The position numbers and the translations under genes were made by a program. The notes under the pieces were generated by a model that was given only the letters and a program-made list of their open reading frames with translations, had not been told where the DNA came from and searched no databases. Shown piece after piece: positions 7,410 to 64,000 of a stretch of 64,000 nt of DNA. Source of the DNA: Nesterenkonia sp. Act20 (GTDB lineage: Bacteria > Actinomycetota > Actinomycetes > Actinomycetales > Micrococcaceae); the NCBI RefSeq assembly GCF_019173455.1, contig NZ_JADPQH010000001.1, positions 1,642,391 to 1,706,390 on the forward strand, written 5' to 3'. How positions within the stretch are numbered: position 1 is the stretch's first letter; every line of letters starts with the position of its first letter.

Positions 7410-8714
7410 TTACTCGCTGGCCTGGGCTTCATTCATGTTTGTCGCAAACTCCTCAGGCGTGATCTCGCCGCGGAACACCTGGGAGAGGCTCTGCAGCAGA
7501 ACCTGCACCTGCGCAGGATCGACAGCCTGATCCCAGGACAGCTGGAAGCTGGGGGCCTCTGTCACGGTTTCGTAGGTGAAGTTGAGGAACTCGGGATCCT
7601 CGGTCTCTGCAATTTTCTCCTCGAGCCCCGTCAGCGGAGGGATGTTTCCGGTCTCCAACATGCCGTCGACATACTCGTCGTTGAACAGCCAGTCAGAGAG
7701 GTAGTCCACCGCTGCCTGCTGCTCGCCTTCGGAGGCATTGGCTGAGACCGACCAGAAGTTGGCTGGATTGCCGACGATGTTCGCGGGGTCACCTTCCCCG
7801 CCCTCGATCTCAGGGAAGGTGGTCACACCGAGATTGCCGGTCTCCATGAAGTCGGGGCTCTCCTCCAGCAGACGCGAGTAGACCCATGACCCCTGCAGGA
7901 CCATAGCCGCCTTGCCGTCCGCCACCAGGTGGGCGTCCTCGTTGTTGTCAGCCACCACCGAGGCGAATCCTGGGTCGAAGGCCCCCGCCTCCACAAGCTC
8001 CTGACAACGTTCCAGCGCCTCGATGATGGCCGGGTGCGACCAGGCATCTTCCTCGCCCTCCACCACGGCCTGGAACGCCTCCGGACCTCCGATGCGGTCG
8101 GTCAAGTACGAGGCCCACATCAGCAGGGGCCAATTGGAGCCTCCGGCGAGGGCGAAGGGATGGACGCCTTGCTCATTGAACACCTCCACCGCTTCAAGGG
8201 TCTCTTCCCAGGTGGTCGGCACCTCGATGCCAGCCTCGTCGAAGACGGCCTGGTTGTAGTACATGACAACGGGCTGCACGTTGTTCATCGGTACGGCGTA
8301 GGTGGAACCATCCACCTCACCGTTGGCGACCACCGATTCGATCAGCCGACCTCGCAGCTCCTCGGTCTCTTCGGTGATGTCGGTGACGTAGTCACCTTCC
8401 ACGTACTCCAGCAGTCCTCCGCCGGTCCAGCCCACGATCAACGTGGGTGCTTCCCCCGAACCCACGGCCTGGCGAATGCGGTCCTTATAGATGTCGTTGG
8501 CGAAGCTCTCAACGGCGAAGGCCTGGTCGGGATTCTCTTCGTTCCATGCCTCGAAGTCCTCCTCCACCTCGTTCCAGACGCCACCGTTGAGGACCCAGGC
8601 GGTTGGCTCCTCGCCCTCTGAGCCGCCGCCGTCCCCACCTCCGCATGCGGACACGCTCAGGAGCGCACCTGCCGCGATCACGGCCGTGCTGAGTCTTGCT
8701 TTTCTTTCCCACAT
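7410..8714 (-). CDS. Sugar ABC transporter substrate-binding lipoprotein (paralogue)
   Basis: Second CUT1 solute-binding lipoprotein, about 434 aa from the chosen ATG (MWERKARLSTAV...), which has AAAGGA about 10 bases upstream; in-frame starts at 8735 and 8786 lack a comparable site. The lipobox is SVSAC followed by GGGDGGGSEGEE. It shares long identical runs with the SBP at 5746-7038 (for example GNPANFWSVSA and MYYNQ), roughly 60% by eye. No permease genes accompany it. It sits 68 bases after the GntP permease gene and is probably the last cistron of that operon, possibly lending an alternative binding protein to the same permease pair. Confidence 0.9.
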   Translation of the reverse strand: MWERKARLSTAVIAAGALLSVSACGGGDGGGSEGEEPTAWVLNGGVWNEVEEDFEAWNEENPDQAFAVESFANDIYKDRIRQAVGSGEAPTLIVGWTGGGLLEYVEGDYVTDITEETEELRGRLIESVVANGEVDGSTYAVPMNNVQPVVMYYNQAVFDEAGIEVPTTWEETLEAVEVFNEQGVHPFALAGGSNWPLLMWASYLTDRIGGPEAFQAVVEGEEDAWSHPAIIEALERCQELVEAGAFDPGFASVVADNNEDAHLVADGKAAMVLQGSWVYSRLLEESPDFMETGNLGVTTFPEIEGGEGDPANIVGNPANFWSVSANASEGEQQAAVDYLSDWLFNDEYVDGMLETGNIPPLTGLEEKIAETEDPEFLNFTYETVTEAPSFQLSWDQAVDPAQVQVLLQSLSQVFRGEITPEEFATNMNEAQASE

Positions 8715-8782
8715 ATCGATCGTTCCTTTCCTCATCAATTGCGATGTGCTTGCGGTACGAGTGTCGTGCGGTATTCGGGTCC

Positions 8783-10186
8783 TCAAGCGGCGATGGCGTA
8801 CACGCCCCAGCTGAGGAAGAAGGCCATGAAGCCGATGGCCGTGGCCATGACGGACCAGGTCTTCAAGGTGGTGATCGTGTCGAAGCCGCAGAAGCGGCCG
8901 ACGAGCCAGAAGCCGGAGTCATTGAAGTGCGAGAAGGTGATCGAGCCCGCCACGATGGCGACCACGAGGGACGCCAGGGCGAAGCCGTCGAGTCCCAGCT
9001 CCATGACGCCGGGGGCCATGATCCCGCCGGCGGTGGTCGCTGCCACTGTGGCCGAGCCCTGTGCGACGCGGATGACCACGGCGACGAGGAAGCCCGCAAG
9101 GATGACCGGCAGGCCCAGCGCATCCAGCCCCTCGGCGATGGATCCGCCGATCCCGGTGGCGGTGAGCACGGCGCCGAAGGCGCCACCGGCACCGGTGATC
9201 AGGATGATCGAGCAGACCGGAGCGAGCGCGTTGTCGATGAGGTCGGACATCGCGTCGCCGAGTCCGCCCGAGCCCCTGCGCGGCTTGATGAAGAGCAGGT
9301 ACATCGCGGCCAACGTTGCGATCAGCAGCGCCACAGGGGTGGGGCCGATGAGCTGGGAGAGCGCGTAGCCGAAGCTGTCCTCGCTGATTCGGCCATCGGC
9401 CTCCAGCGTGTTGGAGAGCGCGTTGTAGAAGATGAGCGCCAGCGGCAGGAGCAGCACGAAGATGACGGTGCCGAAGGCGGGCCGCGCGTACTCCTCGGTG
9501 ACCCTGGACTCCCCGAAGAGGTTCGGGACCGGGAAGTTCGGGTAACCCTTGGCCATGACCAGGCCGAGCCGGTAGCCGGCCAGGTACCAGGTGGGGATGC
9601 CCACCATCATGGCGACGATCAGAACCAGTCCGATGTCTGCACCCATGACCGTGGCGGCCGCCGTTGGCCCGGGGTGCGGTGGGGTGAGGGCGTGCATCAT
9701 CAGGAACGCGCCGATGGAAGGCAGCACGTAGAGCATGAAGCTGCCGCCGAGCCTGCGTGCCACGGTGTAGATCACCGGGAGCATGACGATGAAGCCTGCG
9801 TCGAGGAAGATCGGGAAGGCGTAGAACAGCGAAGCCACGGCGAGGGCCAGGGGCGCTCGCTTCTCCCCGAAGGTGGCGAGCATCTTGTCCGCCAGCACTT
9901 GCGCGCCGCCGGAGATCTCGACCAGACGTCCGAGCACAGCGCCGAAGCCGATGAGCAGCGCGACATTGCCCACTGTGGTGGAGAAGCCACCGACCACCAC
10001 GGAGAGCACGTCGCCGACCGCGATGCCGGCGGCCAGCGCGGTGATCAGCGAAACGATGATCAGCGAGAAGAAGGCATGGAGCTTGACCTTCACGATCAGC
10101 ACCAGCAACAAGATGATGGAAGCCAGTGCCAGGACGAGCAGGGCTGGGGTGGGGAGCTCGAAGGCGAGCGTCAGATCATCGGTCAT
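8783..10186 (-). CDS. GntP-family sugar-acid permease
   Basis: Proton-coupled importer of gluconate or related sugar acids, 467 aa and almost wholly hydrophobic with about 12-14 membrane segments. GntP hallmarks are GFGAVLGRLVEISGGAQVLADKM, the PIFLDAGFIVMLP segment and HALTPPHPGPTAAA. Its ATG overlaps the stop of the upstream dehydrogenase gene by four bases (ATGA), so transport and oxidation are translationally coupled. The substrate is probably a hydroxy-acid such as a tetronate, pentonate or hexonate, inferred from the partner enzymes and not from residues here. Confidence 0.92.
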   Translation of the reverse strand: MTDDLTLAFELPTPALLVLALASIILLLVLIVKVKLHAFFSLIIVSLITALAAGIAVGDVLSVVVGGFSTTVGNVALLIGFGAVLGRLVEISGGAQVLADKMLATFGEKRAPLALAVASLFYAFPIFLDAGFIVMLPVIYTVARRLGGSFMLYVLPSIGAFLMMHALTPPHPGPTAAATVMGADIGLVLIVAMMVGIPTWYLAGYRLGLVMAKGYPNFPVPNLFGESRVTEEYARPAFGTVIFVLLLPLALIFYNALSNTLEADGRISEDSFGYALSQLIGPTPVALLIATLAAMYLLFIKPRRGSGGLGDAMSDLIDNALAPVCSIILITGAGGAFGAVLTATGIGGSIAEGLDALGLPVILAGFLVAVVIRVAQGSATVAATTAGGIMAPGVMELGLDGFALASLVVAIVAGSITFSHFNDSGFWLVGRFCGFDTITTLKTWSVMATAIGFMAFFLSWGVYAIAA

Positions 10187-11151
10187 TTCTTACCCTTCGG
10201 GGCCGGGCCCAGCTCGCGCAGCAGGTCGCCCATGCGGGCGTAGGCCTTGTTGCGATAGGCGATGACAGCGGCCTTGGTCTCGTCGTCGAAGTCCCCGGTC
10301 CAGCCTTTGCCGTTCTTGACTCCGTGGCGACCGGCTGCGACGTTCTCCTCGAGCAGCTTCGGCGGGGCGAGGCGTTCGCCATAGGCCTCGGAGAGCGTGT
10401 TGAACCCGTTGGCGTAGACATCAAGGCCTGCCTGGTCGGCGATCGCGAAGGGGCCGAAGAAGCCGAGCCGGAAGCCGAAGGTGGTCCGCACCACGGTGTC
10501 GACGTCTTCTGCTGTCGCGATGCCCTCCTCGACCACCGAGGCGGCCTCCTTGAGCAGCGCATACTGGAGCCGGTTCAAGACCATGCCGGGAGTGTCCGCG
10601 ACTTCGGCACCTTCACGGCCCGCTCGAGCCAGGAGCTCCTTGACGGCGTCGACCACATCGGGGGTGGTCGCCTCCCCGGAGACCAGCTCGACACCGGGGA
10701 TGAAGGGAGCAGGGTTGGAGAAGTGCACGGTGAGGAACCGCTCGGGGTTCTTCACCGCTGAGACCAGCACGTGAACCGGAATCGTGGAGGTGTTCGTGCC
10801 GATGATGGCGTCTTCGCGAGCGTGCTCGGAGATCTTCCCCAGCACCTCCCGCTTGACCTCGGGAGACTCGAAGACGGCTTCCTCGATGAAGTCGGACTCG
10901 GCGACGGCTTCTTCAAGCGTGCGGCCCGCCGTCAGATTCGCCTTGATGGTCTCAGTGGATCCAGCCGCGTACAGCCCCTGGTCCTCAAACTCCTGAGCCT
11001 CCTGGAGCAGCCGCTCGAGACCCTTCTTGGCTGCCTCGACGTCGACGTCGACGATCTCGACTTTCAGCTCCGCCAGGGCCAGGGACTGGGCGATGCCGCC
11101 GCCCATGTACCCGGCGCCGACGACTGTCACGGTGTTGATGGTCTTGGCCAT
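10183..11151 (-). CDS. 3-hydroxyacyl-CoA dehydrogenase-family oxidoreductase, probable sugar-acid 3-dehydrogenase
   Basis: NAD-dependent dehydrogenase of about 322 aa. N-terminal Rossmann fold with GAGYMGGGIAQ, then NTSTIPV and HFSNPAPFIPGVELV, and the C-terminal helical domain with NRLQYALLKEA and GFRLGFFGPFAIAD. Length and single C-terminal domain match L-gulonate 3-dehydrogenase/short HAD enzymes rather than fatty-acid multifunctional proteins, and there are no other beta-oxidation genes nearby. The second ATG (11151) is chosen since AGAGG is well spaced to it and too close to the one at 11160. Placed between a sugar isomerase-like gene and GntP, it most likely oxidises the 3-hydroxyl of an imported aldonate. 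The product would be a beta-keto acid prone to decarboxylation. Confidence 0.8.
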   Translation of the reverse strand: MAKTINTVTVVGAGYMGGGIAQSLALAELKVEIVDVDVEAAKKGLERLLQEAQEFEDQGLYAAGSTETIKANLTAGRTLEEAVAESDFIEEAVFESPEVKREVLGKISEHAREDAIIGTNTSTIPVHVLVSAVKNPERFLTVHFSNPAPFIPGVELVSGEATTPDVVDAVKELLARAGREGAEVADTPGMVLNRLQYALLKEAASVVEEGIATAEDVDTVVRTTFGFRLGFFGPFAIADQAGLDVYANGFNTLSEAYGERLAPPKLLEENVAAGRHGVKNGKGWTGDFDDETKAAVIAYRNKAYARMGDLLRELGPAPKGKK

Positions 11152-53338: not shown

Positions 53339-54112
53339 TCAATGGCACAGCTTCTTAGTGAGTTCGTGAGCATGACGCAACAGAAGCCTCCCCATCTCAG
53401 GACGCCGCGCTGCGGAGAAGCGCGATTCGATCCCTGTGAGGCTCAAGGACCAGGCCGGCTGCCCTGACGGGTCAAAGACTGCCGCACCCATTCCCCAACT
53501 TCCCTCCACGATGAGTCCCGGGTTCAGTGACCAACCGTGCGTTCGGGTCTGGACGATCCGTTGCCGGAGAGTATCGACATCATGGCTCTCACCATGTTCA
53601 ACCACCAGGCTGTGGTTCGCGAGATACCGATCAATCGCATCCCCATCAAGGAACGAAAGGATCGCCAATCCTGCCGAGGCCACTCCCAGTGGGAATCGCT
53701 TGCCCTCGTAGAGGACGAAGGAGCGGATTGGAAAAGAACCGTCCTGCCTGAGCAGGCAGACAGTCTCATCCCCTCGTCTCGCTGAGAGAAACGCGCTTTC
53801 TCCTGTAGCGTCCGCCAGTGCTTCGACGTGCTGGCGAGCAATCGAGGTGATGTCGTAGCGCTCCGCCGCCACAGCTCCCATGAGGTAAACCTCCGGGCCC
53901 AGCAACCACAACCCCTTCCGATGGTCATGGTCGCAGAACCCCTCTTCGGTGAGGGCACTGAGCAGACGATGCACGGTGGGGCGTGGCAGATCGACAACTC
54001 GGGCTATCTGAATCGTGGAACTGCCTTCTGGCATCGACGTGCTGACCGCACGGAGAACTTTCGCGAGGCGACCGACCATTTGCGCGCCCGGAATGGAACT
54101 GGACATGTTCAT
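53339..54112 (-). CDS. IclR-family transcriptional regulator
   Basis: 257 aa: winged HTH (about 15-75, with SSTIQIARVVDLPRPTVHRLLSAL) and an effector domain (about 80-250, with GESAFLSARRGDETVCLL and GLIVEGSWGMGAAVFD). IclR proteins often control aromatic and keto-acid catabolism (PcaR/PobR types). Divergent from the CoA-transferase-thiolase genes, which it probably regulates through the 54113-54253 region. Confidence 0.9.
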   Translation of the reverse strand: MNMSSSIPGAQMVGRLAKVLRAVSTSMPEGSSTIQIARVVDLPRPTVHRLLSALTEEGFCDHDHRKGLWLLGPEVYLMGAVAAERYDITSIARQHVEALADATGESAFLSARRGDETVCLLRQDGSFPIRSFVLYEGKRFPLGVASAGLAILSFLDGDAIDRYLANHSLVVEHGESHDVDTLRQRIVQTRTHGWSLNPGLIVEGSWGMGAAVFDPSGQPAWSLSLTGIESRFSAARRPEMGRLLLRHAHELTKKLCH

Positions 54113-54253
54113 ATTATGACGTCAAGGTCCGAATTCGCCATGCAACGACCAATATAGGGGCTATCGGCACTCCCTCGTTGCCTTCATTAAAGACTACTAG
54201 CTAGGTTCTCCCTACGAACGGAAGCGTCCGCGTTGTGGACGGAGGGAGACACT

Positions 54254-54958
54254 TTGTCGAGCAAAATCAGGGAAAACGCCACCGAGGCGCTCACTTCGGT
54301 TGTGCAGGATGGCATGACCATTGCAGTGGGAGGCTTCGGACTCAGCGGCATACCCACCCGTCTTATCACCGCACTTCGGGACTCAGGTGCGACAGGCCTG
54401 ACGATCGTCTCGAACAACATGGGTGTGGATGGCAAGGGGCTCGGGCTGCTGCTAGAGAACGGCCAGGTCTCGAAGGTGCTTGCCTCATATGTCGGTGAGA
54501 ACAGGCTGTTCGCGAAACAGTTTCTGAACGGAAATCTTGAGGTCGAGTTCGTCCCGCAGGGAACACTGGCCGAACGACTGCGAGCTGGAGGCGTCGGGAT
54601 CCCTGCGTTCTACACGCCTACTGGTGTGGGCACTCCTGTTGCAGAAGGCAAACCCACCTGCGAGTTCGACGGAAGGGTTTCCGTCCTGGAACGAGGGATC
54701 ATCGCCGACCTCTCTTTGGTGCGCGCACATCGAGCTGATGCGGAGGGCAACCTCAGCTACAGGATGACATCGCGGAACTTCAATCCGCTGGTCGCGATGG
54801 CTGGGCGCATCACTCTTGCTGAGGCCGAAATGCTGGAGCAGGACTACTTGGACCCCTCCCTGGTGGACACGCCGGGGATCTTCGTACAGCGTCTCGTCGC
54901 CGCCGATCAGACCAAGGACATCGAAAAGCGGACCGTGCGTGTCCGACAGGAGGTCTAG
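54254..54958 (+). CDS. scoA: 3-oxoacid CoA-transferase subunit A
   Basis: About 234 aa. Class I CoA-transferase alpha chain, with [45 protein letters not shown] and [15 protein letters not shown]. The SYVGEN region favours the succinyl-CoA:acetoacetate type (ScoA) over PcaI, which has a different loop there. TTG 54254 is taken as start because GGAGGG lies seven bases upstream; the GTG at 54233 has none. With ScoB it activates a 3-oxoacid from succinyl-CoA. First gene of scoA-scoB-thiolase. Confidence 0.88.
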
Positions 54959-54962
54959 AACC

Positions 54963-55613
54963 ATGTGGACGCGAGACGAAATGGCGGCCATCGCTGCGAA
55001 CGAGCTGACCGACGGCCAGTATGTGAACCTCGGGATCGGCATCCCGACACTGGTAGCTAACAACCTACCTTCAGGGGTGCGCGTCACCTTGCAGAGCGAG
55101 AATGGGTTGCTGGGAATGGGGCCGTTCCCTTACGAGGGTGAAGAGGACGCCGATCTGATCAATGCCGGCAAACAAACGGTGACTCTCCTTCCTGGTGGCA
55201 GCTACTTCGATTCGGCCACCTCCTTCGGAATGATCCGGGGCGGTCACGTCCAGACTGCGATCCTCGGCGCTCTGCAGGTATCTGCCAACGGCGACCTGGC
55301 GAACTGGACCGTCCCTGGCAAGCTCGTCAAGGGCATGGGAGGGGCAATGGACCTCGTCGTGGGTGCCCCCCGAGTCATCGTCATCACCGACCACCTGACC
55401 AAAGACGGCTCCCCGAAGATTGTTGAGCGCTGCGACCTGCCCCTGACTGGATCCGGTGTAGTCGATCGGATCATTACGGACCGGGGGGTCTTCGACATCA
55501 TCGATTCGAAGCTCATACTGCGAGCCGTGGCTCCTGGTGAGGACATCGAGTCGCTGAAGAAGACCACGGGCGCGAAATTCACAGTTGACCTCGAAGATGG
55601 GGTAGCCCTATGA
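54963..55613 (+). CDS. scoB: 3-oxoacid CoA-transferase subunit B
   Basis: 216 aa beta chain with the catalytic Glu in [27 protein letters not shown] and [18 protein letters not shown] 54963 has AGGAGG in good position and follows the scoA stop by four bases. Its stop overlaps the thiolase ATG by four bases. Confidence 0.92.
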
Positions 55614-56779
55614 GCGCGCTGATCGCTGGCTATGCCCGCACCCCCTTCGTCCGCTTCAACGGTGGACTGGCTTCAGTTCCCGCGACCATGCTGGGGGCCC
55701 ACGCGACAACCGCAGCGCTTGAGCGCGCTGGGATCTCGCCGGAGATCGTCCAGCGGGTCTACGCCGGGCAGGTGCTTCAGTCGGGCTCCGGGCAGAACCC
55801 GGCCCGACAATCCGCGGTCGGGGCTGGGATCAGCTTCAGGACCCCGTCGATGACGGTGAACGCGGTATGCCTGTCGGGCATGGAGGCTGTGACTGCCGGA
55901 GAACGCCTGATATCTGCAGGAGAGGCGGACGTGGTGGTTGCTCTCGGGCAGGAATCCATGTCGCTCGCCCCCCACGCGCAGACGGCACGGGCAGGAACCC
56001 GGTACGGAGCCATCGAGATGGTCGACACCCTCGAGTTGGACGGTCTCACCGACGCCTTCGAAAAGCGCTCTATGGGTTCCTCTACCGAAGATGGGAATAC
56101 GACCAGAGGAATCTCCCGAACGGCTCAGGACGAGTGGGCCGCCCGTTCACACAGGCTCGCCGCAGCCGCAGAGTCTTTCCACGCCGCAGAGATCTCCCCC
56201 TACACGCTGGTCACCCGAAAGGGCGAAGTCCTCGTCTCATCCGACGACGGAGTCCGACCCAACACCACGATGGCGACTCTGAACAAGTTGCGTCCGGCCT
56301 TCAGCCGTGAAGGCACCATCACCGCCGGGAACTCCTCTCAGATCACCGACGGTGCGGCTGCACTGGTTCTTGTCAGTCCCAAGGCAGCAGAAACTCTCGG
56401 AATCACGCCACTGGCAGAGGTGATCTCCCACTCCATGGTGGCGGGGCCGGGAGTAGCGCTGCATGATCAACCTGCCGATGCCATCCGCGCAGCGTTGGCC
56501 GGAACGCATCTGACGCCCTCCGACCTGGCGGTCGTGGAGATCAATGAAGCTTTCGCAGCGGTCGCCGTCCAGTCGACCGAGTCCCTGGGGGTCGACCTCT
56601 CGATCGTCAACCCGAAGGGTGGCGCGATAGCGCTTGGCCACCCGATCGGCGCATCAGGCGCTCGTCTAATCGGCACCCTTGCCCGGCAGCTGGCAGAGAC
56701 AGGTTCCGGAGCTCTCGGCGCGGCAGGAATCTGCGGGGGCGGAGGACAGGGCAGCGCGGTGATCTTGCGAGCGTCGTGA
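55610..56779 (+). CDS. Thiolase (acetyl-CoA acetyltransferase/beta-ketoadipyl-CoA thiolase)
   Basis: 389 aa with nucleophile Cys87 in VNAVCLSGM, His in [11 protein letters not shown] and second Cys in GICGGGGQG. Cleaves the 3-oxoacyl-CoA made by ScoAB to acetyl-CoA plus a shorter acyl-CoA; acetoacetyl-CoA is the simplest substrate, given the FAH-type hydrolase in the same island, with 3-oxoadipyl-CoA as alternative. The 246-base gap to the LysR gene holds no clear terminator. Confidence 0.92.
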
Positions 56780-57025: not shown

Positions 57026-57973
57026 ATGGGTGCTCATGAACGGGTCTCTCGTCTTGATCTCAACCTACTCGTCGCCCTGGACGCTCTCCTTACGGAGAAG
57101 AGCGTGACTCGCGCAGCAGAACGGCTTCACCTCAGCCAGCCAGCACTGAGCGCCTCCCTCGGGCGCCTCAGGCGAGATTTTGGCGATGAAATTCTGACCC
57201 GCCAGGGGAATTCATACCACCTGACGCCATTAGCTGAACGCCTCAAGGAACACACCACGACCGCCCTCGAGGCGGCCCAGAGGGTCTTCGAGCTCACGCC
57301 TCATCGTCGTCCCGCGCAATCTACCCGCGAGTTCTCCCTGTACGGCTCCGACTACGGAATTGCCATGATTGGGGCTCAGGTTTCGCGGCGCATGGCGGAG
57401 ACAGCACCTCACGCCCGAGTCCGCATGCGTCTCCACAACCCGACGATCGTTGAGGACGCGGCACATCAGCTGCGCTCGGTCGACGGCATCATTCTTCCCC
57501 ACGGGTTCCTGTCCGGGCTCTCCCATTGCGACCTGTGGCAGGACGAGTGGGTGATTCTCGCCGCGGCCGATAACCCGCACATCACGGCTCAGCTGACCTT
57601 GGACATGCTTGCTGCTTGCCCGTGGGTAGTAACCTATCTGACCCGCTCGGCCTTCACTGCGGCCAACCGCCAGATGCAACATCTGGGACTCGAACTTCGA
57701 GTCGAGGCTGTGGTTGAGAGCTTCCTTGCCCTGCCAAACTTCGTGCGGAGGACGCAGCGGCTAGCTGTGGTGCATAGAGGGATAGCCGAGCGGTTGCCAC
57801 TGCACGGTCTGGAGCTCCATCCACTGCCCTTCGATGTTCCGCCAGTGATGTCCGCCCTGTGGTGGCATCCCGTGTACGACGACGACCCGGAGCACCGCTG
57901 GTTCCGCGAAGTGCTTCAGGACGCCGCCGCGGACGTCGAACCGTCCAGGGAATCAGCGCTCGACGCCGACTGA
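57026..57973 (+). CDS. LysR-family regulator, NodD/LinR-like
   Basis: 315 aa. N-terminal HTH with LDLNLLVALDALLTEKSVTRAAERLHLSQPALSASLGRLR (residues about 9-48) and a periplasmic-binding-like effector domain. The fold beginning with REFSLYGSDYGIAMIG matches the NodD/LinR branch, whose inducers are often flavonoids or other aromatics. AGGAGG precedes the ATG. Converges on the GMC gene with a 21-base overlap of 3' ends; a natural candidate for controlling the minus-strand C-glycoside operon. Confidence 0.9.
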   Translation: MGAHERVSRLDLNLLVALDALLTEKSVTRAAERLHLSQPALSASLGRLRRDFGDEILTRQGNSYHLTPLAERLKEHTTTALEAAQRVFELTPHRRPAQSTREFSLYGSDYGIAMIGAQVSRRMAETAPHARVRMRLHNPTIVEDAAHQLRSVDGIILPHGFLSGLSHCDLWQDEWVILAAADNPHITAQLTLDMLAACPWVVTYLTRSAFTAANRQMQHLGLELRVEAVVESFLALPNFVRRTQRLAVVHRGIAERLPLHGLELHPLPFDVPPVMSALWWHPVYDDDPEHRWFREVLQDAAADVEPSRESALDAD

Positions 57974-59518
57974 GTGCGCCAGGCGCCTAGCGCCTCGTAC
58001 GGCCAGGGCCACGCTCATGAGGGTTGGGTTCATGCTCGTGGCGGTGGGAATCACACCATTTCCGCCGACGAACAGGTTGTTGAAGCCCCACACTGTCGAC
58101 CAGGGGTCGGCGACGCTGGCGCCATCGTCTTCCTCCCCCAATCTCGTGGTGCCCTGGTAGTGCAGACTGGACCCTGCTGGCATCAACCGTGGCTCCGCCA
58201 CAAAATGGCCCAGGGCGGCCCCTGCCCGCCGGAGACGACGAGTTGCTTCCTCGATCTCTGCACCCTCGATATCGGTGAGTGAATACCGGATGGTCATCTT
58301 GGGGAAGCCGAGGTAGTCCTTGAGCTCGTCGTCGAATATCACCCCATCTTCGACACGGGGTCGCTTCCGCAGCCCGAAACCCATATTGACGAAACCCCAA
58401 GGATTGCCGCAGAACGGGGAGTCTTCCGGCAGACGAAACGGAGGCTCTTCTGAGTACATAATCTGTGCGGAGAATGGGTGATCCGGCTCCGAGAATGGGA
58501 TCCGTTTGACCGCCGCCACGGGATCAGCGTGACGGGCGCGGTGAGCGAGCTCAGTGTCTCGTTGCTCCTCGGTCAAGAACTCCCGCAAAGTCTCCCCCTC
58601 GAGTGCGACGGTGGACACGACTACCGGATGCTCAGTGAGGTACCTACCAAGGGCCTGAGGTCGGATCCCAGAGTGCCAGAGGAGTTGCGGAGTGCGGAAG
58701 GCATCGGCTGCGACCACGACGGCGTCGGCAGCGACGTCCTCTGTCTCCCCAGTGCGCAGGTCCTCAACTTTCACGCCATGAACTCGCCCATCCTCATGGA
58801 GGACCTCCCGGACCAACGTCAGATCACGGAGCCGAAACCTGCGAGAGAGCGGATGCGACGACTCGATGAGTGGTCCAAGGACTGCGTCAACGCCTGCCCA
58901 CCGCATGGAGCCATCTGGCTGCGGGTCCCCTGCAACTGGCAAGGTGCTCACGCCTCGCCCATCGGGAAGCTCATCGTTGAACTCGCGTTCGAGTACTTTC
59001 TGCAGCGCCTTCGCTATCGGGGAATCCTCGAAGGGAGCCGTGCGCACATGGAGGAGCTCCTCGGCAACATCCAGGAGCTCGCCCCACTCACTGTCATCGA
59101 CAAAGGCGACACGTTCACTGTCAGCAGGCCGAGGTGTGGCACAGGTCCAATGCACGCCCTGACCGCCCACGTTCGACGACGCGGCGGCAGCCGGGAAGTC
59201 TGTGGCCTCTACTGCACCCTTACCCCCGTAATCCAACAGGAAAGTTCCTTGACGTGCCGTGAAGCTGCCTTCGACGACCGTGTCCTCAGGAATTCCAAGC
59301 GCTGCCCGATGCTCACCAGCCAGAGGCCCCTGTGACTTCGTCCTAGCCTCCGCCTTGGCCGTGGGATCCGACAGATTTCGCACGTTTTCTCCGGCAGTGG
59401 AGGTGAGCTGCGGTCCAGCCTCAAACATCATGACTTGAATGTCCGGGGTGGTCTCCAAGAGAATTCGCGCGTAGGTGGCCCCGATTGGTCCGCTTCCGAC
59501 GATGCAGATGGTCTTCAT
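57953..59518 (-). CDS. GMC flavoenzyme, pyranose oxidase/C-glycoside 3-oxidase type
   Basis: 521 aa. FAD-binding GSGPIG (8-13); GGQGVHWTCATP (119-129), where His123 matches the His that carries covalent FAD in pyranose oxidases; catalytic His about 453 in SSLHYQGTTRLG and Asn about 497 in TSMNPTLMS. The HWTCATP motif separates this group from glucose and choline oxidases. CarA of soil actinobacteria belongs here and oxidises C3 of the sugar in C-glycosides, the step needed before C-C cleavage. Last gene of the operon; its ATG overlaps the MFS stop by four bases. Cytoplasmic, no signal peptide. Confidence 0.88.
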   Translation of the reverse strand: MKTICIVGSGPIGATYARILLETTPDIQVMMFEAGPQLTSTAGENVRNLSDPTAKAEARTKSQGPLAGEHRAALGIPEDTVVEGSFTARQGTFLLDYGGKGAVEATDFPAAAASSNVGGQGVHWTCATPRPADSERVAFVDDSEWGELLDVAEELLHVRTAPFEDSPIAKALQKVLEREFNDELPDGRGVSTLPVAGDPQPDGSMRWAGVDAVLGPLIESSHPLSRRFRLRDLTLVREVLHEDGRVHGVKVEDLRTGETEDVAADAVVVAADAFRTPQLLWHSGIRPQALGRYLTEHPVVVSTVALEGETLREFLTEEQRDTELAHRARHADPVAAVKRIPFSEPDHPFSAQIMYSEEPPFRLPEDSPFCGNPWGFVNMGFGLRKRPRVEDGVIFDDELKDYLGFPKMTIRYSLTDIEGAEIEEATRRLRRAGAALGHFVAEPRLMPAGSSLHYQGTTRLGEEDDGASVADPWSTVWGFNNLFVGGNGVIPTATSMNPTLMSVALAVRGARRLAHSVGVER

Positions 59519-61068
59519 ATCCTTGAGTCCGATTCCTTTGTTGAGTCACGAGTGGTCATGTTTTCGGTTGCTGCCAGTGCGTCCCGCGGCAGCAGGGCGG
59601 CAGTTACGACCCCAAGGGCGTAGACGCCGGCGAGCGCAAAAAAGACGGTGGAGAGCACCTCGTCGTATGCGTAGGCGATCATTGCTTGGTCCGCCTCGCT
59701 AGCGCCAGCGAGCTGCGCGGGAGTCAGACCAGCTTCAACAAGTCGATCCGGAAGAAGCGAGACCACCCCGGAGCCGATCATGCTTCCGACGAACCCTCCC
59801 CCGGCTGCCGCGCACACCTGGCGCACCAGATTCACCACGGCCGTAGACGCACCCACCTCCCTTGCCGGCACTGCCGATTGCGCAACGGCGACAATGATGT
59901 TCATGAAACAGCCCGTGCCGATGCCGACCAGCGCCATCGCGACCATCGGCGCAGCCAATGATGTCGACGGCGGGATCAGCGCCATCGCAAGCAAGCCCAT
60001 CGACGCTATGGCTGTACCGATGAGGGGATATCTCCTGTATCTCCCCGTGCGTCCAACCAGCCACCCTGTCGCCAGCGACGTCACCAGCATTCCGAACACC
60101 GTGGCGATCGGGACGAGCCCAGACATGGTCGGTGGAACCAGAAATGCCATCTGTATGTATGTCGGGACGTAGGCCACAACAGAAAAGAAGCCGATGCCCA
60201 TCACGGCGGCCAGGATCGCCGCCAGCACCACGCCCCGCTCTGTGAGCACAGATAACGGGATTAACCGGTGCTCAAGACGTCGTTCTCGCAAGATCCACGC
60301 GCCGCCGGCCAGCAGAACGACAACAGCCGCTACCCCCACCTGCGGTTGCCAGACGCTCTCCCCCCACCATGTAATTAGGAGGATCAGTGAGACAGAGGAG
60401 ACCATGAACAGCAGGACACTCAATGGGTCGATACGAACAGTTCGGTCGCCGGAGATCTGAGGGATAAAGGCCCAAGCCCCAAGGACAGCGAGGGCGCCGA
60501 GCGGGACATTGATCCAGAAGATCCAGGGCCACCCCCAGTTCTCAGTGATCAGACCGCCAAGGACTGGTCCAACGACGATGGCCACTGGAAAGGCTGCACC
60601 CACGATGCTCAGGTACTTGGCCCGCTGCTGGGGAGGCGCCACAAAGGCAATGATCGTCTGAGACATCAGTTGCATTGCGGCCGCTCCAGAGCCCTGTATG
60701 ACCCGTGCCGCCACAAGCTGCGGCAATGACTGGGCGAACCCGCACAGCAGTGAGGCCGTCACGAAGATCACGAGACCGGTGACGAAGATTCTACGAACGC
60801 CCCAACGATCCCCCAACCGGCCCAGCACGGGCAGTAGGACGGCCGCAGACATCGTGTAGGAGACGACGATCCAGCTCAGTTGCTCGACGGCTCCTAGCTC
60901 TCCCGCGATCGTCGACAATGCCGTGGAGACGATCGTGTGGTCGATCGCCCCCAGGAACGCTGCCCCGAGGAGGGTCAAGATCACCACGCGAAGTCGCCAA
61001 GGCGACAGGCGTTCGACGTCCCGGACAGCGTGTTCACCACGCAAGGGCGCTCCTCCGTATGAGGTCAT
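59515..61068 (-). CDS. MFS transporter, DHA2 (14-helix) family
   Basis: About 517 aa with 14 hydrophobic segments. TM1 holds LGAIDHTIVSTALSTIA, motif A is GRLGDRWGVRR and motif C GPVLGGLITENWGWPWIFWINVP split after residue 190. DHA2 members are mostly drug exporters, but in this operon import of the glycoside or export of a toxic aglycone are both possible. ATG 61068 is used, overlapping the deglycosidase gene by 35 bases; an upstream in-frame start at 61116 overlaps more. Confidence 0.88.
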   Translation of the reverse strand: MTSYGGAPLRGEHAVRDVERLSPWRLRVVILTLLGAAFLGAIDHTIVSTALSTIAGELGAVEQLSWIVVSYTMSAAVLLPVLGRLGDRWGVRRIFVTGLVIFVTASLLCGFAQSLPQLVAARVIQGSGAAAMQLMSQTIIAFVAPPQQRAKYLSIVGAAFPVAIVVGPVLGGLITENWGWPWIFWINVPLGALAVLGAWAFIPQISGDRTVRIDPLSVLLFMVSSVSLILLITWWGESVWQPQVGVAAVVVLLAGGAWILRERRLEHRLIPLSVLTERGVVLAAILAAVMGIGFFSVVAYVPTYIQMAFLVPPTMSGLVPIATVFGMLVTSLATGWLVGRTGRYRRYPLIGTAIASMGLLAMALIPPSTSLAAPMVAMALVGIGTGCFMNIIVAVAQSAVPAREVGASTAVVNLVRQVCAAAGGGFVGSMIGSGVVSLLPDRLVEAGLTPAQLAGASEADQAMIAYAYDEVLSTVFFALAGVYALGVVTAALLPRDALAATENMTTRDSTKESDSRI

Positions 61069-62533
61069 GCTGCCGACGGACGAGCTCCAACGAATCAACT
61101 TCGCCCAGATCGGCAAAAGCGTGGCCCTCCCACTCGGAGGAGAACCATCCCCGGAAGCCCGCGTCCGAAAAAGTCCGGACGAGCTCGGGATAATCGATCG
61201 CGGGCTCCTGGCCCCTCTCGTCTATGTCGTAGAACTTTGCGTGAACGTGCATGATCTGAGGCATAATTTCTCGCCACTCTTCGACGTCGACGTGTCCCTG
61301 CATATTGAAGGCCAGTCGGGCGAACGGGCCCAGTGTGGCGGGGTCTACTCCTCGAGAACCTAGATACTCGATGAACTCCTCCTGTCTGGACTGTATCGGT
61401 TCGTCAGTCGCCCAGATCTCCTGAAGCCGATTCAGCGCCTTTTGGTCGAGGCCCATACGGCCCATAGTGCGCAGGAGGGTCGGTGCCATGCTGTGCATGG
61501 TCGAGGAGAAGTCCGCGACGAACCCGAGTAGCGGCGAGTCCAACTCTTCGTAAAGCTCGCGCACTCGCTGGATGGGTTCGGAATTCGGACCATTCGGGGC
61601 GTGTATCTCGTATGCCATTTTGAGCTCAAGCTCCTCCGCGAGGGGCAACAAACGACGCAGCAGCTCAGGTTTGGCAGACTGGATGCGCACCAAGGGGAAG
61701 CTCAGGCGGTGGGCCGATTCGAACAGCCGCTTCGTGAAATCAAATTCCTCGTCCGGAGTCATGTCCCGATCGTTGCGTCGCCCCATGTCCAGATTTGCCC
61801 CGAACGCAGTCGCGGTGAAGCCGTAGCGATCGAAGGTGTCCCTCCATCGGTCTACGAACTCGTCGGTGACGTCAGGATAGGTCCGGAGCGTCTGGGAGCC
61901 CACGATCTCGATGCCGGGCCCAATCCCCAGCTTCGCAACACGGTCTAACACCGAATCCATGTCCAGCCATCCCGCGACGAGCTCAGCGGTGGCGGAATAC
62001 AACGTCAGCCCGAGCCCGAACGGCAGCTCCACACTTCCGGCCGCCTTCTCCTGTGGCACTTCCGGCCGGTCTATGGCAGACGCGTTCCGTGATGCTCCGT
62101 TCTGCCTCTCCCCGTCAGCTGTCACGACCATCTCCTGCGCGACGCTGACATGGTTAGGCACGTAAACCCCGGGCTTCTCTTCGTTGCCCGGCGCAATCTG
62201 CATGTACGGCAGACGGAGTTCCATGGCGAGGTCGATCTCGTAGGCAGTTCCTTCAGAGGAGGGCTCAAGCCGCGGTATCACGAGCAGGGGATGGTCACCT
62301 ACGAACCAAAGGACGTCCCACCGTTCGGGCAGTTCATGAACCGGATAGGTCTGACCGTCCAGCTCGAGGTACAGGTCCTCGCCAGGGACGGCTTCCCCAT
62401 CCACGCTGACGCGTACTGTCTGAACCGAAGAAAGCCAGAGGCTGCGGTACCACGGTAGCTGCAGTTCGAGCGCCAGCCCCTTCTCATGGGGGTGGAGGCT
62501 TGAGTCTGTGATGAGAACGTCGTGCGTGGCCAT
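61034..62533 (-). CDS. Fused C-glycoside deglycosidase (beta-subunit domain + TIM-barrel alpha-subunit domain)
   Basis: 499 aa. Residues 1-140 resemble the small beta subunit of C-glycoside deglycosidases (DUF6379/CGDB): LQLPWYRSLWLSSVQTVRVS, LPERWDVLWFVGDHPLL and MELRLPYMQIAPG. A Ser/Asn/Glu-rich linker (about 140-166) leads to a xylose-isomerase-like barrel (about 167-499) with metal ligands Glu309 (AYEIHAPN), Asp341 (FVADFSS), His431 (HVHAKFYD) and Glu467 (SSEWEGHA), as in the alpha subunits DfgA/CarB. Those enzymes are known to me as two-gene heteromers; here both are one chain in reverse order. Expected reaction: cleavage of the C-C bond in a 3-oxo-C-glycoside. AAGGAG nine bases before the ATG. 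Confidence 0.82.
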   Translation of the reverse strand: MATHDVLITDSSLHPHEKGLALELQLPWYRSLWLSSVQTVRVSVDGEAVPGEDLYLELDGQTYPVHELPERWDVLWFVGDHPLLVIPRLEPSSEGTAYEIDLAMELRLPYMQIAPGNEEKPGVYVPNHVSVAQEMVVTADGERQNGASRNASAIDRPEVPQEKAAGSVELPFGLGLTLYSATAELVAGWLDMDSVLDRVAKLGIGPGIEIVGSQTLRTYPDVTDEFVDRWRDTFDRYGFTATAFGANLDMGRRNDRDMTPDEEFDFTKRLFESAHRLSFPLVRIQSAKPELLRRLLPLAEELELKMAYEIHAPNGPNSEPIQRVRELYEELDSPLLGFVADFSSTMHSMAPTLLRTMGRMGLDQKALNRLQEIWATDEPIQSRQEEFIEYLGSRGVDPATLGPFARLAFNMQGHVDVEEWREIMPQIMHVHAKFYDIDERGQEPAIDYPELVRTFSDAGFRGWFSSEWEGHAFADLGEVDSLELVRRQHDLIRRSALAW

Positions 62534-62557
62534 GGGTTGCTTCTCCTTATGGATGAT

Positions 62558-63532
62558 TCAGGTTTCGTGTCGTGCAGGTGCGACGGAACGTGCGCTGCGG
62601 AGGGGCGGTGCAGATCGGGCGTGCCCAACAATGTTGGTGATCTCTCCAACGCCTTCGACCCACAGAGTGACCACGTCGCCCTGCTTCAGGGGCGGGGGTT
62701 CCATCACTCCGCTGCGTCCCCAGAGTTCGGCCAGACAGCCCCCGTTGCCGACGGTGCCTGATCCGAGGACGTCACCGGGGCGGACGACAGAGTCGCGCGA
62801 GGCATAGGCGACGAGTTCCGGGAATGTCCATCCCATGTGCAGGAACGTGTCGTGGCCGACCCTCACACCATTGACGAACGCTTCGGCCTTCAGTGGGAGC
62901 AGCCCCTCCGGAGTGCGCCGGGGGTGGAGCTCATCCGCCGTGACGATCCATGGCCCGAGGGTGGTGGCGAAGTCTTTTCCCTTACACGGACCGAGGCGCA
63001 CCCGCATCTCCCTGCTCTGCAGATCACGGGCCGACCAGTCATTCATGACGACGTAGCCGAAGATGTGCCCGTCCGCCTCCTCGGGGGTTAGAGACACGCC
63101 GCTAGAACCGGCGACTCCGCCGACCACAGCAGCCAGCTCGAGCTCGAAGTCCAACCTGTCTGTCATCGGGGGCCGTAAAAGATCTCCGCTACCAAGAATC
63201 GTGTGCGGGTTGGCAAAATAGTAGGTGGGGGCCTCGTACCATTCAGGTACAACTTCGCTGCGGCCATCGACGGCGGCGCTCACCCCCTCGACATGCTCCT
63301 CGAAGGCCACGAAGTCGCGCACCGAAGTGGGCTCGAGGGGAGACGTGAGCGTCACCTGACGCAAGGGTGTCGGCGGCGCCGACGCAACCTGGTCTCTGAC
63401 GCTGTCGACTAGAGCCAGCCCATCGATGAAGAGTTGGCGCATCGTGATGCCGCCCGGAAAGGGAACGACACCCCCGTCGCGAATGAAGCCTTCTTCGAGA
63501 CGTCCGTCATTCCACCATCGTCCCAGTCTCAT
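62558..63532 (-). CDS. Fumarylacetoacetate hydrolase (FAH)-family protein
   Basis: 324 aa. FAH fold with RDFVAFEEHV (Asp73, catalytic His80), metal Glu130/Glu132 in DFELELA and Asp165 in MNDWSARDLQ, then GKDFATTLGPW. Full-length N-terminal region supports the FAH/2-keto-acid hydrolase type, cleaving C-C bonds of acylpyruvates or fumarylacetoacetate. Products such as acetoacetate would go to ScoAB and thiolase. Overlaps the upstream amidohydrolase gene by four bases (63529-63532). Confidence 0.88.
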   Translation of the reverse strand: MRLGRWWNDGRLEEGFIRDGGVVPFPGGITMRQLFIDGLALVDSVRDQVASAPPTPLRQVTLTSPLEPTSVRDFVAFEEHVEGVSAAVDGRSEVVPEWYEAPTYYFANPHTILGSGDLLRPPMTDRLDFELELAAVVGGVAGSSGVSLTPEEADGHIFGYVVMNDWSARDLQSREMRVRLGPCKGKDFATTLGPWIVTADELHPRRTPEGLLPLKAEAFVNGVRVGHDTFLHMGWTFPELVAYASRDSVVRPGDVLGSGTVGNGGCLAELWGRSGVMEPPPLKQGDVVTLWVEGVGEITNIVGHARSAPPLRSARSVAPARHET

Positions 63533-64000
63533 GTACTGGCCTCCTGGGTCTCGACGTCGACGAGGGCACCCGAGAAGGGAACCAGTTCAGCTGCGTTTTC
63601 GCTGAGAACGCTGCGGGTCTCATCGTCGCCCAAGTCTGCGGCCAGCACGGCTGAGACTGGATCCTCGCAACCCATGTCGAACGGGTAATCACTGCCCATG
63701 AGGACGCGGTCCGCCCCGACGATCGAGATCAGGTGCCGCAGCGCTGCGGAGTCGTGCACGACGCTGTCGAACCATAGGCGTCGCAGGTAGCTCGAAGGCG
63801 GCTCGGCGCACCCTTGAGCCTCCGGTCGGAGGTGCCAGGCCCGGTCGGAGCGTCCAATGGAGCTCGGGAGATACCCACCACCGTGCGCGGCGATCACTTT
63901 CAAACCCAGGTGCCGATCCAAGACCCCAGCGAAGATCAGATGGGACAGAGCCACCGCGTTCTCGGTGAGCTGACCCACCGTGTTTGACAGGTAGAACCGG
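63529..64000 (-). CDS. Amidohydrolase, ACMSD-like (C-terminal part)
   Basis: The last 157 codons of a gene that continues beyond the window; the frame is open to base 64000 (RFYLSNTVGQLTENAVALSHLIF), so the GTG at 63978 is internal. Amidohydrolase-2 signatures: LSHLIFAGVLDRHLGLKVIAAHGGG with the metal-site His, SDRAWH, and the metal Asp in RVLMGSDYPF. Family members include aminocarboxymuconate-semialdehyde decarboxylase and gamma-resorcylate decarboxylase, which fits decarboxylation or hydrolysis of an aromatic or ring-cleavage acid. Overlaps the FAH gene by ATGA. Confidence 0.85.
   Translation of the reverse strand, partial: RFYLSNTVGQLTENAVALSHLIFAGVLDRHLGLKVIAAHGGGYLPSSIGRSDRAWHLRPEAQGCAEPPSSYLRRLWFDSVVHDSAALRHLISIVGADRVLMGSDYPFDMGCEDPVSAVLAADLGDDETRSVLSENAAELVPFSGALVDVETQEAST

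Follow-up and report, generated by a model that had tools for sequence, protein, structure and literature searches.

A probable single-chain beta-alpha C-glycoside deglycosidase gene in Nesterenkonia sp. Act20 and its relation to the known fused enzyme

C-glycosides resist ordinary glycosidases. The C-glycoside deglycosidases (CGDs) that cleave them are treated as heteromeric enzymes in PMC12141560. In a 64,000-nucleotide stretch of the Nesterenkonia sp. Act20 genome, which we call the window, a first-pass annotation made from the sequence alone noted one frame at 61034-62533 that joins both subunits as a natural beta-linker-alpha fusion. Does this frame encode a genuine single-chain CGD and, if so, does it belong to a kind that is already known? 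Our comparison of homologous genes suggests that, as far as our searches show, it represents a second, separately evolved lineage of single-chain CGDs, which has kept the canonical metal site and is often encoded beside the first. We refer to this lineage as type I and to the one that resembles the PDB entry 8QRZ as type II; these names, like group IV, are our own. The architecture is new only as a second lineage, since a natural single chain of 435 residues in the order beta-alpha is already known from the CGD of Microbacterium testaceum (8QRZ/8UN2). The view of the first-pass annotation that CGDs are described only as separate polypeptides is therefore out of date.

One frame for two subunits

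The frame is open without interruption for 499 codons on the minus strand, as had been annotated apart from the strand, from an ATG at 62533 to a stop at 61034 (Table 1). Pfam recognised the proposed beta domain as PF19906 (CGDB) at residues 17-110, with 53 bits against a cut-off of 27.6, and the alpha barrel as PF01261 at residues 197-480, with 48.3 bits against a cut-off of 31.1; no NCBIfam model matched the fusion protein at an E-value of 0.01. Phmmer searches of the PDB aligned residues 172-495 without gaps to 7dnm_A, the alpha subunit of AgCGD2 (E 1.8e-125), and residues 1-136 to its beta subunit 7dnm_B (E 2e-33), the latter alignment starting at residue 1 of both proteins. These matches far exceed chance. 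AgCGD2 (AgCarB2-C2 of Arthrobacter globiformis, 7DNM/7DNN) is the closest solved relative of both halves, with 57% and 46% identity, and consists of two polypeptides forming an alpha-beta heterodimer (PMC8563793), whereas the window gene encodes a single chain. Separate alpha and beta polypeptides, as in the two-subunit CGDs, are thus not found here, and the fixed 1:1 stoichiometry that had been expected follows directly; a change in oligomer form or substrate range, likewise suggested at the time, may accompany it. A stop or frameshift hidden in the linker had been considered; the frame is open there in the window and in all relatives counted as fused. The stretch from residue 116 to residue 172 comprises 57 residues in the window protein, the longest among 67 aligned type I rows, 62 of which have 48.

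The predicted structure agrees with this arrangement. An AlphaFold2 model built on 49 of the 67 type I sequences reached a mean predicted local distance difference test (pLDDT) score of 78.7 and a predicted TM-score (pTM) of 0.77. The pLDDT fell below 50 at residues 1-5, 141-166 and 405-410, and the blocks of the beta part scored 76-95 at residues 11-110 but 57-61 at residues 111-130. In Foldseek searches, which compare single chains, the top match of the model was 7dnm_A (E 7.6e-35, target TM-score (TMt) 0.81, 57% identity), while 7dnm_B was matched separately (TMt 0.88, 46% identity), so that the first part takes the beta-subunit fold in the model. Pfam, the PDB matches and the predicted disorder of the linker all agree with a beta-linker-alpha fusion. 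A four-helix alpha lid is present in PuCGD and AgCGD2, whereas EuCGD lacks one; in our model, four helices are predicted at the site of the AgCGD2 lid (residues 351-359, 364-374, 380-393 and 398-409), where the position of the lid is set by the alignment and the end of the last helix is of low confidence.

In AgCGD2, the metal is bound by Glu147, Asp179, His269, Lys271 and Glu305, and His149 together with Glu307 forms the acid/base pair, assignments backed by mutants of PuCGD and MiCGD (PMC8563793). All seven residues are identical in the window protein. The metal set of Glu309, Asp341, His431 and Glu467 given by the first-pass annotation is thus present and is extended by Lys433 as a fifth ligand and by the His311/Glu469 pair. 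Glu309, His311 and Asp341 are identical in 66 of the 67 type I rows and the other four in 65; the exceptions are alignment gaps in L093, which is cut by its contig end, and in L104, whose frame is broken. Most of the pocket residues that were compared are also alike: Tyr17, Ser124, Phe242, Asn248 and Met249 of AgCGD2 are kept as Tyr179, Ser286, Phe404, Asn410 and Met411.

EuCGD (DfgA-B) and PuCGD (DgpB-C) from gut bacteria have the family fold and, by alignment, the five metal-residue positions in common with the window protein, and are two-chain enzymes forming alpha4beta4 octamers (PMC8563793). The soil enzymes MiCGD (CarBC), AgCGD1, MtCGD and PurBC catalyse the CGD reaction and are reported to be alpha-beta heterodimers (PMC8563793, PMC12724307). 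A split pair that we label CGD1-like from its tree group lies in the same gene block of the Nesterenkonia genome as the fusion.

Two lineages of fused enzymes

The single chain 8qrz_A matched both halves of the window protein in the phmmer search. Its PDB record, released on 2025-04-23, is entitled ‘Microbacterium testaceum C-glucosyl deglycosidase (CGD), wild type’, and the type II open reading frame (ORF) of M. testaceum NS220 (locus L058) is identical to it over 433 residues; the type II ORF of Agromyces ramosus (L039) gives a 433-residue alignment with 815 bits. Both this enzyme and the window protein are natural single chains with the beta part first. However, 8QRZ/8UN2 belongs to a DfgA-like lineage of 433-435 amino acids with a short linker and a Gln in place of the metal-binding His, and is only 24% identical to the window protein.

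Our literature search, in which most subscription journals were out of reach, found no account of a fused CGD and no paper on 8QRZ, and in the accessible portions of the CGD literature that it did find, type I fusions go without mention; further articles drawn on were PMC10807413, PMC12724307 and PMC11673046. Type I thus appears to be unstudied. This includes the vicinity of the studied cluster of Pseudarthrobacter siccitolerans, for which the accessible portion of PMC10646112 lists four CGD ORFs in the vicinity of psg3ox, all separate, and mentions no fusion. In P. siccitolerans 4J27 (L098, 1595-4398), we observed one fused CGD of each type in tandem, with a GMC oxidase and split CGD pairs at a distance of about 5 kb.

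A scan of the genome collection with the window protein yielded 69 loci, 66 of which contain a type I fusion. Together with the window, this amounts to 67 type I ORFs, next to 65 fused ORFs of type II and two of group IV (loci fetched earlier included). The other three loci are a split pair of Geodermatophilus saharensis (L091) and two AgCGD2-like split alphas (L100, L101) from genomes already counted. Both domains are spanned in full in 64 of the 66 type I loci, the exceptions being the contig-cut L093 and the broken L104. Directly upstream of type I, 51 of the 66 loci carry a fused type II gene, the end of which falls anywhere from 8 nt past the inferred type I start to 87 nt ahead of it. 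Seven loci have an alpha of type II/IV, scored as split, no more than 600 nt away, and one of these loci (L053) is contig-cut. In the remaining eight, neither was found within 600 nt, although in one of them (L056) a fused type II gene is located 1.2 kb upstream. Within the genus, PF19906 was detected in one of 30 genomes, that of Act20 itself, and within the family sample in 27 of 395, Act20 included. Among 396 genomes sampled across the phylum, none other than Act20 matched as type I at E <= 1e-60, the one further match being a 37% alpha; the fusion is therefore not common at that breadth.

The two types differ consistently at one metal ligand. In a motif scan, all 65 fused type II rows had Gln at the position of AgCGD2 His269 (for example L058, 8679-9980), whereas all 65 type I rows that could be scored had His, and Gln369 is invariant in a 37-row type II alignment. 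Since Gln was also scored in 12 split type IV rows, it marks the lineage and not the fusion. The scan also scored Gln in group III, yet a relative of that group, 8qvc_A, has His; we therefore trust it for groups I and II only, where the alignments agree.

Phylogenetic trees argue for separate origins. For the alpha tree, 226 stretches were thinned by similarity to 66 rows and joined by six PDB stretches; after a first tree, six rows with very long branches and 15 others were removed by hand, which left 51 rows. The beta tree comprised 106 rows (from 223 stretches and five from the PDB) and 139 columns, some rows being mislabelled as split. Smaller trees of 31 rows combined 18 hand-chosen type I fusions out of 65 with 13 split pairs. 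In the 51-row alpha tree, type I groups with AgCGD2-like alphas, whereas type II groups with DfgA. Approximately unbiased (AU) tests rejected a single origin of the fused CGDs: when the 21 fused among the 51 alpha rows were constrained to form a clade, the log-likelihood fell by 361 units (p-AU 6.2e-79), and the same constraint on the 48 fused among the 106 beta rows gave p-AU 7e-46. A common fused ancestor with the 8QRZ type is thereby rejected. Fused type I formed a single clade in all 31-row trees, with support of 100/98 (alpha), 90/86 (beta) and 100/99 (concatenated). Minimum-change counts between fused and split states (three in the alpha tree, nine in the 106-row beta tree) were not relied on because in the beta tree some ‘split’ rows, such as L016, L018, L019, L028 and L029, are cut at the ends of 3.3-kb loci; open frames of 496-670 lie at their places. 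In two of them, L018 and L029 from the same family as Act20, the type I beta stretches show no difference from the ones found in Pseudarthrobacter phenanthrenivorans (L073) and an Arthrobacter (L054). The fused members of groups II and IV may or may not form one clade (p-AU 0.046 in the alpha tree), so that more than two fusions, or fissions, are possible.

The nearest split relative of type I in the tree is the Geodermatophilus pair (98/91 in the 51-row alpha tree), which is 66% identical to the window protein in the best segment and lacks the insertion in the beta7-beta8 loop. It has the same beta-then-alpha order in two separate genes that overlap by ATGA, and by eye it has about as many residues between the beta C-terminus and the barrel as most fused linkers. 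This comparison suggests that a small indel at the ATGA overlap would suffice for fusion. Split type II-like pairs upstream of type I overlap in the same way, by ATGA in L043, L048, L095 and L099 and by GTGA in L102. The type I fusion probably arose once in its lineage, from a translationally coupled beta-alpha pair like that of Geodermatophilus.

As a control for the structural comparison, the type II fusion of L058 was modelled in the same way on 37 aligned fused sequences (pLDDT 89.4, pTM 0.89) and matched 8UN2/8QRZ with TM-scores of 0.95-0.96 over the chain, which shows that the method can position both halves of such a fusion. Against 8QRZ, the type I model reached only a query TM-score (TMq) of 0.47 and a root-mean-square deviation of 18.8 Å over 514 columns, a hint that the predicted domain placement differs between the types. 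A wider picture, to which we would give rather less than an even chance, is that at least two fusions took place in soil actinobacteria, their products often being encoded side by side (type I with the canonical metal site and a long floppy linker, type II with Gln and a short linker), and that type I would dock its domains unlike 8QRZ and serve to insulate cognate pairing in cells with several CGD paralogues. Independent fusions, together with split relatives that overlap by ATGA, offer a natural test of how fusion affects pairing, oligomer state and substrate choice. In M. testaceum NS220 (L058, 8679-11467), the gene of the 8QRZ product is followed by a type I fusion about 5 nt further on (from its inferred start), and this tandem represents a natural pair for comparison.

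Some loci deviate from the common pattern. The type I frame of Microbacterium elymi (L104, 9989-11466) is broken within the alpha part, through decay or a sequencing error, while that of a metagenome-assembled genome (MAG; L053, 906-3266) continues to 786 residues owing to a missing stop, a frameshift or an assembly error. A MAG labelled Fulvimarina (Pseudomonadota; L093) carries a cut type I and a type II fusion on a contig assigned to an alphaproteobacterium, reflecting either transfer or mis-binning. In two Amnibacterium loci (L041, 8441-9925; L047, 2151-3368), a very divergent split CGD alpha, with a very long branch in the first alpha tree, replaces type II upstream of type I.

Proposed reaction and competing explanations

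Taking domains, residues and fusion together, we consider it highly probable that the gene product is a single-chain C-glycoside deglycosidase; its substrate is probably a flavonoid C-glycoside. In the reaction that we propose, a GMC oxidase of the same block would first oxidise C3 of the C-linked sugar, and the 3-oxo-C-glycoside would then bind in a pocket that lies between the two domains of the fused enzyme itself. A Mn2+ or Mg2+ ion on Glu309, Asp341, His431, Lys433 and Glu467 would carry a hydroxide and deprotonate the aglycone phenol, while His311, helped by Glu469, would take the proton from C2 of the sugar. The C-C bond would then be broken in a beta-elimination-like step to give the aglycone and 1,5-anhydro-D-erythro-hex-1-en-3-ulose, and other enzymes encoded in the block, namely the FAD monooxygenase, the extradiol dioxygenase and the FAH proteins, might open the aglycone. 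The fusion would make beta-alpha pairing obligatory, in the presence of two further CGD pairs that are split. The two domains, the seven residues, the intact frame and the conservation of the fusion come from the sequence; the metal chemistry and the location of the active site at the domain interface are taken over by homology from PMC8563793, and the substrate class and the later opening of the aglycone are inferred only. A CGD encoded by one gene should be easier to express and to engineer than a two-subunit enzyme.

The window protein might instead belong to the known single-chain lineage of M. testaceum, with which it has in common the beta-then-alpha order and the match of 8QRZ to both halves. 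We regard this as very improbable, given the rejection of a single fused clade in both trees, a closest solved relative that is the split AgCGD2 and not 8QRZ, the strict separation of the types by Gln or His at the metal site and the adjacency of both types in 51 of the 66 loci. To the notion that two genes were merged into one frame by an error of sequencing or assembly, or that the copy is decaying, we give almost no credence: the Geodermatophilus pair shows how small the difference between the two states is, and the frames of L104 and L053 are indeed irregular, but the same fusion recurs in 66 other loci, 64 of them spanning both domains in full (L053 without the usual stop), and the window copy has no internal stop, all key residues and a Shine-Dalgarno (SD) motif. 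The chain might also work as two products, if translation started internally or if proteases cut the linker; the predicted disorder of the linker and a GTG at residue 137 of the window protein that has an SD-like motif ahead would be in keeping with this. However, an SD-preceded in-frame start at the junction is present in just two of the 67 type I genes, the window included, which rules out internal initiation there as a general feature, and a scan of the window gene found no SD-preceded start within residues 141-171; overall, this explanation seems quite improbable. An unlikely alternative with more in its favour is a fused CGD-like enzyme with another reaction, such as beta-elimination of O-glycosides or epimerisation or isomerisation of 3-keto-sugars. 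The alpha fold is common to sugar epimerases, two further CGD pairs and a second GMC oxidase in the genome make specialisation possible, and our literature search found no assay of a type I member; against it stand the retention of all CGD catalytic residues and of the beta domain, and 57% identity to the alpha subunit of an assayed CGD.

Several observations weigh against our reading of the gene as a single-chain CGD of a separate lineage. The pTM of 0.77 makes the domain placement only moderately sure. In the 106-row beta tree, the betas of the window and of Demequina are nearer to split betas than to most fused betas, and the sisterhood with Geodermatophilus is weak in the 31-row trees (90/77 for alpha, 86/68 concatenated). 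Both GMC oxidases score below the cut-off of TIGR02462. Substrate preference is affected as well. AgCGD2 accepts a C8-glycoside, while MiCGD, AgCGD1 and MtCGD act mainly on C6-glycosides (PMC8563793), and the kept AgCGD2 pocket residues would point to a C8 preference, for which we see about even odds. This preference is weakened because Arg123, placed in AgCGD2 at the C7 hydroxyl of docked orientin (PMC8563793), is Gln285 in the window and in all 67 type I rows, and because the beta7-beta8 loop has six residues more than that of AgCGD2; the split beta2 of the Nesterenkonia genome has an equally long insertion. Moreover, Phe404, Asn410 and Met411 lie in or beside the low-confidence model segment 405-410, and CGD1-type alphas align with Gly or Leu at Asn248, which PMC8563793 calls conserved, so that this loop is uncertain outside the AgCGD2-like group.

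Gene neighbourhood

Table 1. Features at the fusion locus, in window coordinates
Feature	Position	Strand	Basis
Type I fusion CGD, 499 aa	61034..62533	-	open frame, Pfam CGDB + AP_endonuc_2, 7dnm A and B matches
Beta (CGDB/DUF6379) domain, residues 1-140	62114..62533	-	PF19906, 7dnm_B match, model
Linker, residues 141-171, mostly predicted disordered	62021..62113	-	pLDDT <50 at 141-166
Alpha TIM-barrel domain, residues 172-499	61037..62020	-	PF01261, 7dnm_A match, model
Shine-Dalgarno-like AAGGAG	62543..62548	-	sequence; 10-15 nt ahead of ATG
Glu309 (AgCGD2 Glu147), metal ligand	61607..61609	-	alignment; role from PMC8563793
His311 (AgCGD2 His149), proposed base	61601..61603	-	alignment; role from PMC8563793
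Asp341 (AgCGD2 Asp179), metal ligand	61511..61513	-	alignment; role from PMC8563793
His431 (AgCGD2 His269), metal ligand; Gln in 8QRZ-type fusion	61241..61243	-	alignment, PMC8563793
Lys433 (AgCGD2 Lys271), metal ligand	61235..61237	-	alignment; role from PMC8563793
Glu467 (AgCGD2 Glu305), metal ligand	61133..61135	-	alignment; role from PMC8563793
Glu469 (AgCGD2 Glu307), partner of base	61127..61129	-	alignment; role from PMC8563793
MFS transporter	59515..61116	-	PF07690, 191.5 bits; listed start overlaps fusion 3′ end, true start probably later
GMC oxidoreductase, pyranose-oxidase-like, probable C-glycoside 3-oxidase	57953..59518	-	TIGR02462
LysR-type regulator, convergent	57026..57973	+	PF00126, PF03466
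FAH-family hydrolase, directly upstream	62558..63532	-	PF01557, 161.5 bits
Amidohydrolase-like gene, cut by window end	63529..64000	-	translation; named by eye

PF19906 occurs at three places in the genome of Act20 (2.93 Mb in two contigs): in the fusion and, 8.6-11 kb upstream of it, in two split pairs. The latter lie just beyond the window (L005) and comprise a CGD1-like beta-alpha pair with a 4-nt overlap (8904-10438) and an AgCGD2-like alpha-beta pair (7439-9075), so that three CGD systems are found within about 13 kb. In the direction of transcription, the block reads ABC sugar transporter (by eye), sugar isomerase, GMC oxidase, beta1-alpha1, alpha2-beta2, Gfo/Idh, sugar isomerase, extradiol dioxygenase, FAH, cyclase, FAD monooxygenase, amidohydrolase-like gene, FAH, fusion, MFS and a second GMC oxidase. 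The GMC oxidase of the window matches TIGR02462 with E 1e-62 and 212.8 bits (cut-off 544.9), and the other one lies about 12 kb upstream of the fusion. The genes for FAD monooxygenase, cyclase, FAH and extradiol dioxygenase adjoin the CGD pairs (L005, 951-5220), the dioxygenase matching TIGR03211 with E 6.5e-74 and 248.9 bits, below the cut-off of 320.2. Breakdown of flavonoids by the A-ring route involves an FdeE-like FAD monooxygenase together with an FdeC-like glyoxalase (PMC11069340), and a flavonoid aglycone would fit this block.

Conservation of the neighbours is uneven. Counted as lower bounds, since many loci are cut and each ORF was credited to one query, homologues in the 66 relative loci were found for the ABC binding protein (60), LysR (54), one sugar isomerase (46), the GMC oxidase L5 (40), the FAD monooxygenase (17), the GMC oxidase of the window (16), MFS (14), Gfo/Idh (11), and the extradiol dioxygenase and its FAH (one each), and in none of the 66 for the window's own FAH and amidohydrolase and for the cyclase. 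The block has a G+C content of 0.599-0.640, against 0.625-0.689 over the window's first 52 kb, and a fragment of an integrase core is located close to its far end. The block is sporadic and was probably acquired. Promoter and terminator scans gave no signal above chance level. Beside the block, at 53339-56779 of the window, an IclR-like regulator, a CoA-transferase-like pair and a thiolase-like gene (by eye) resemble the end of an aromatic pathway.

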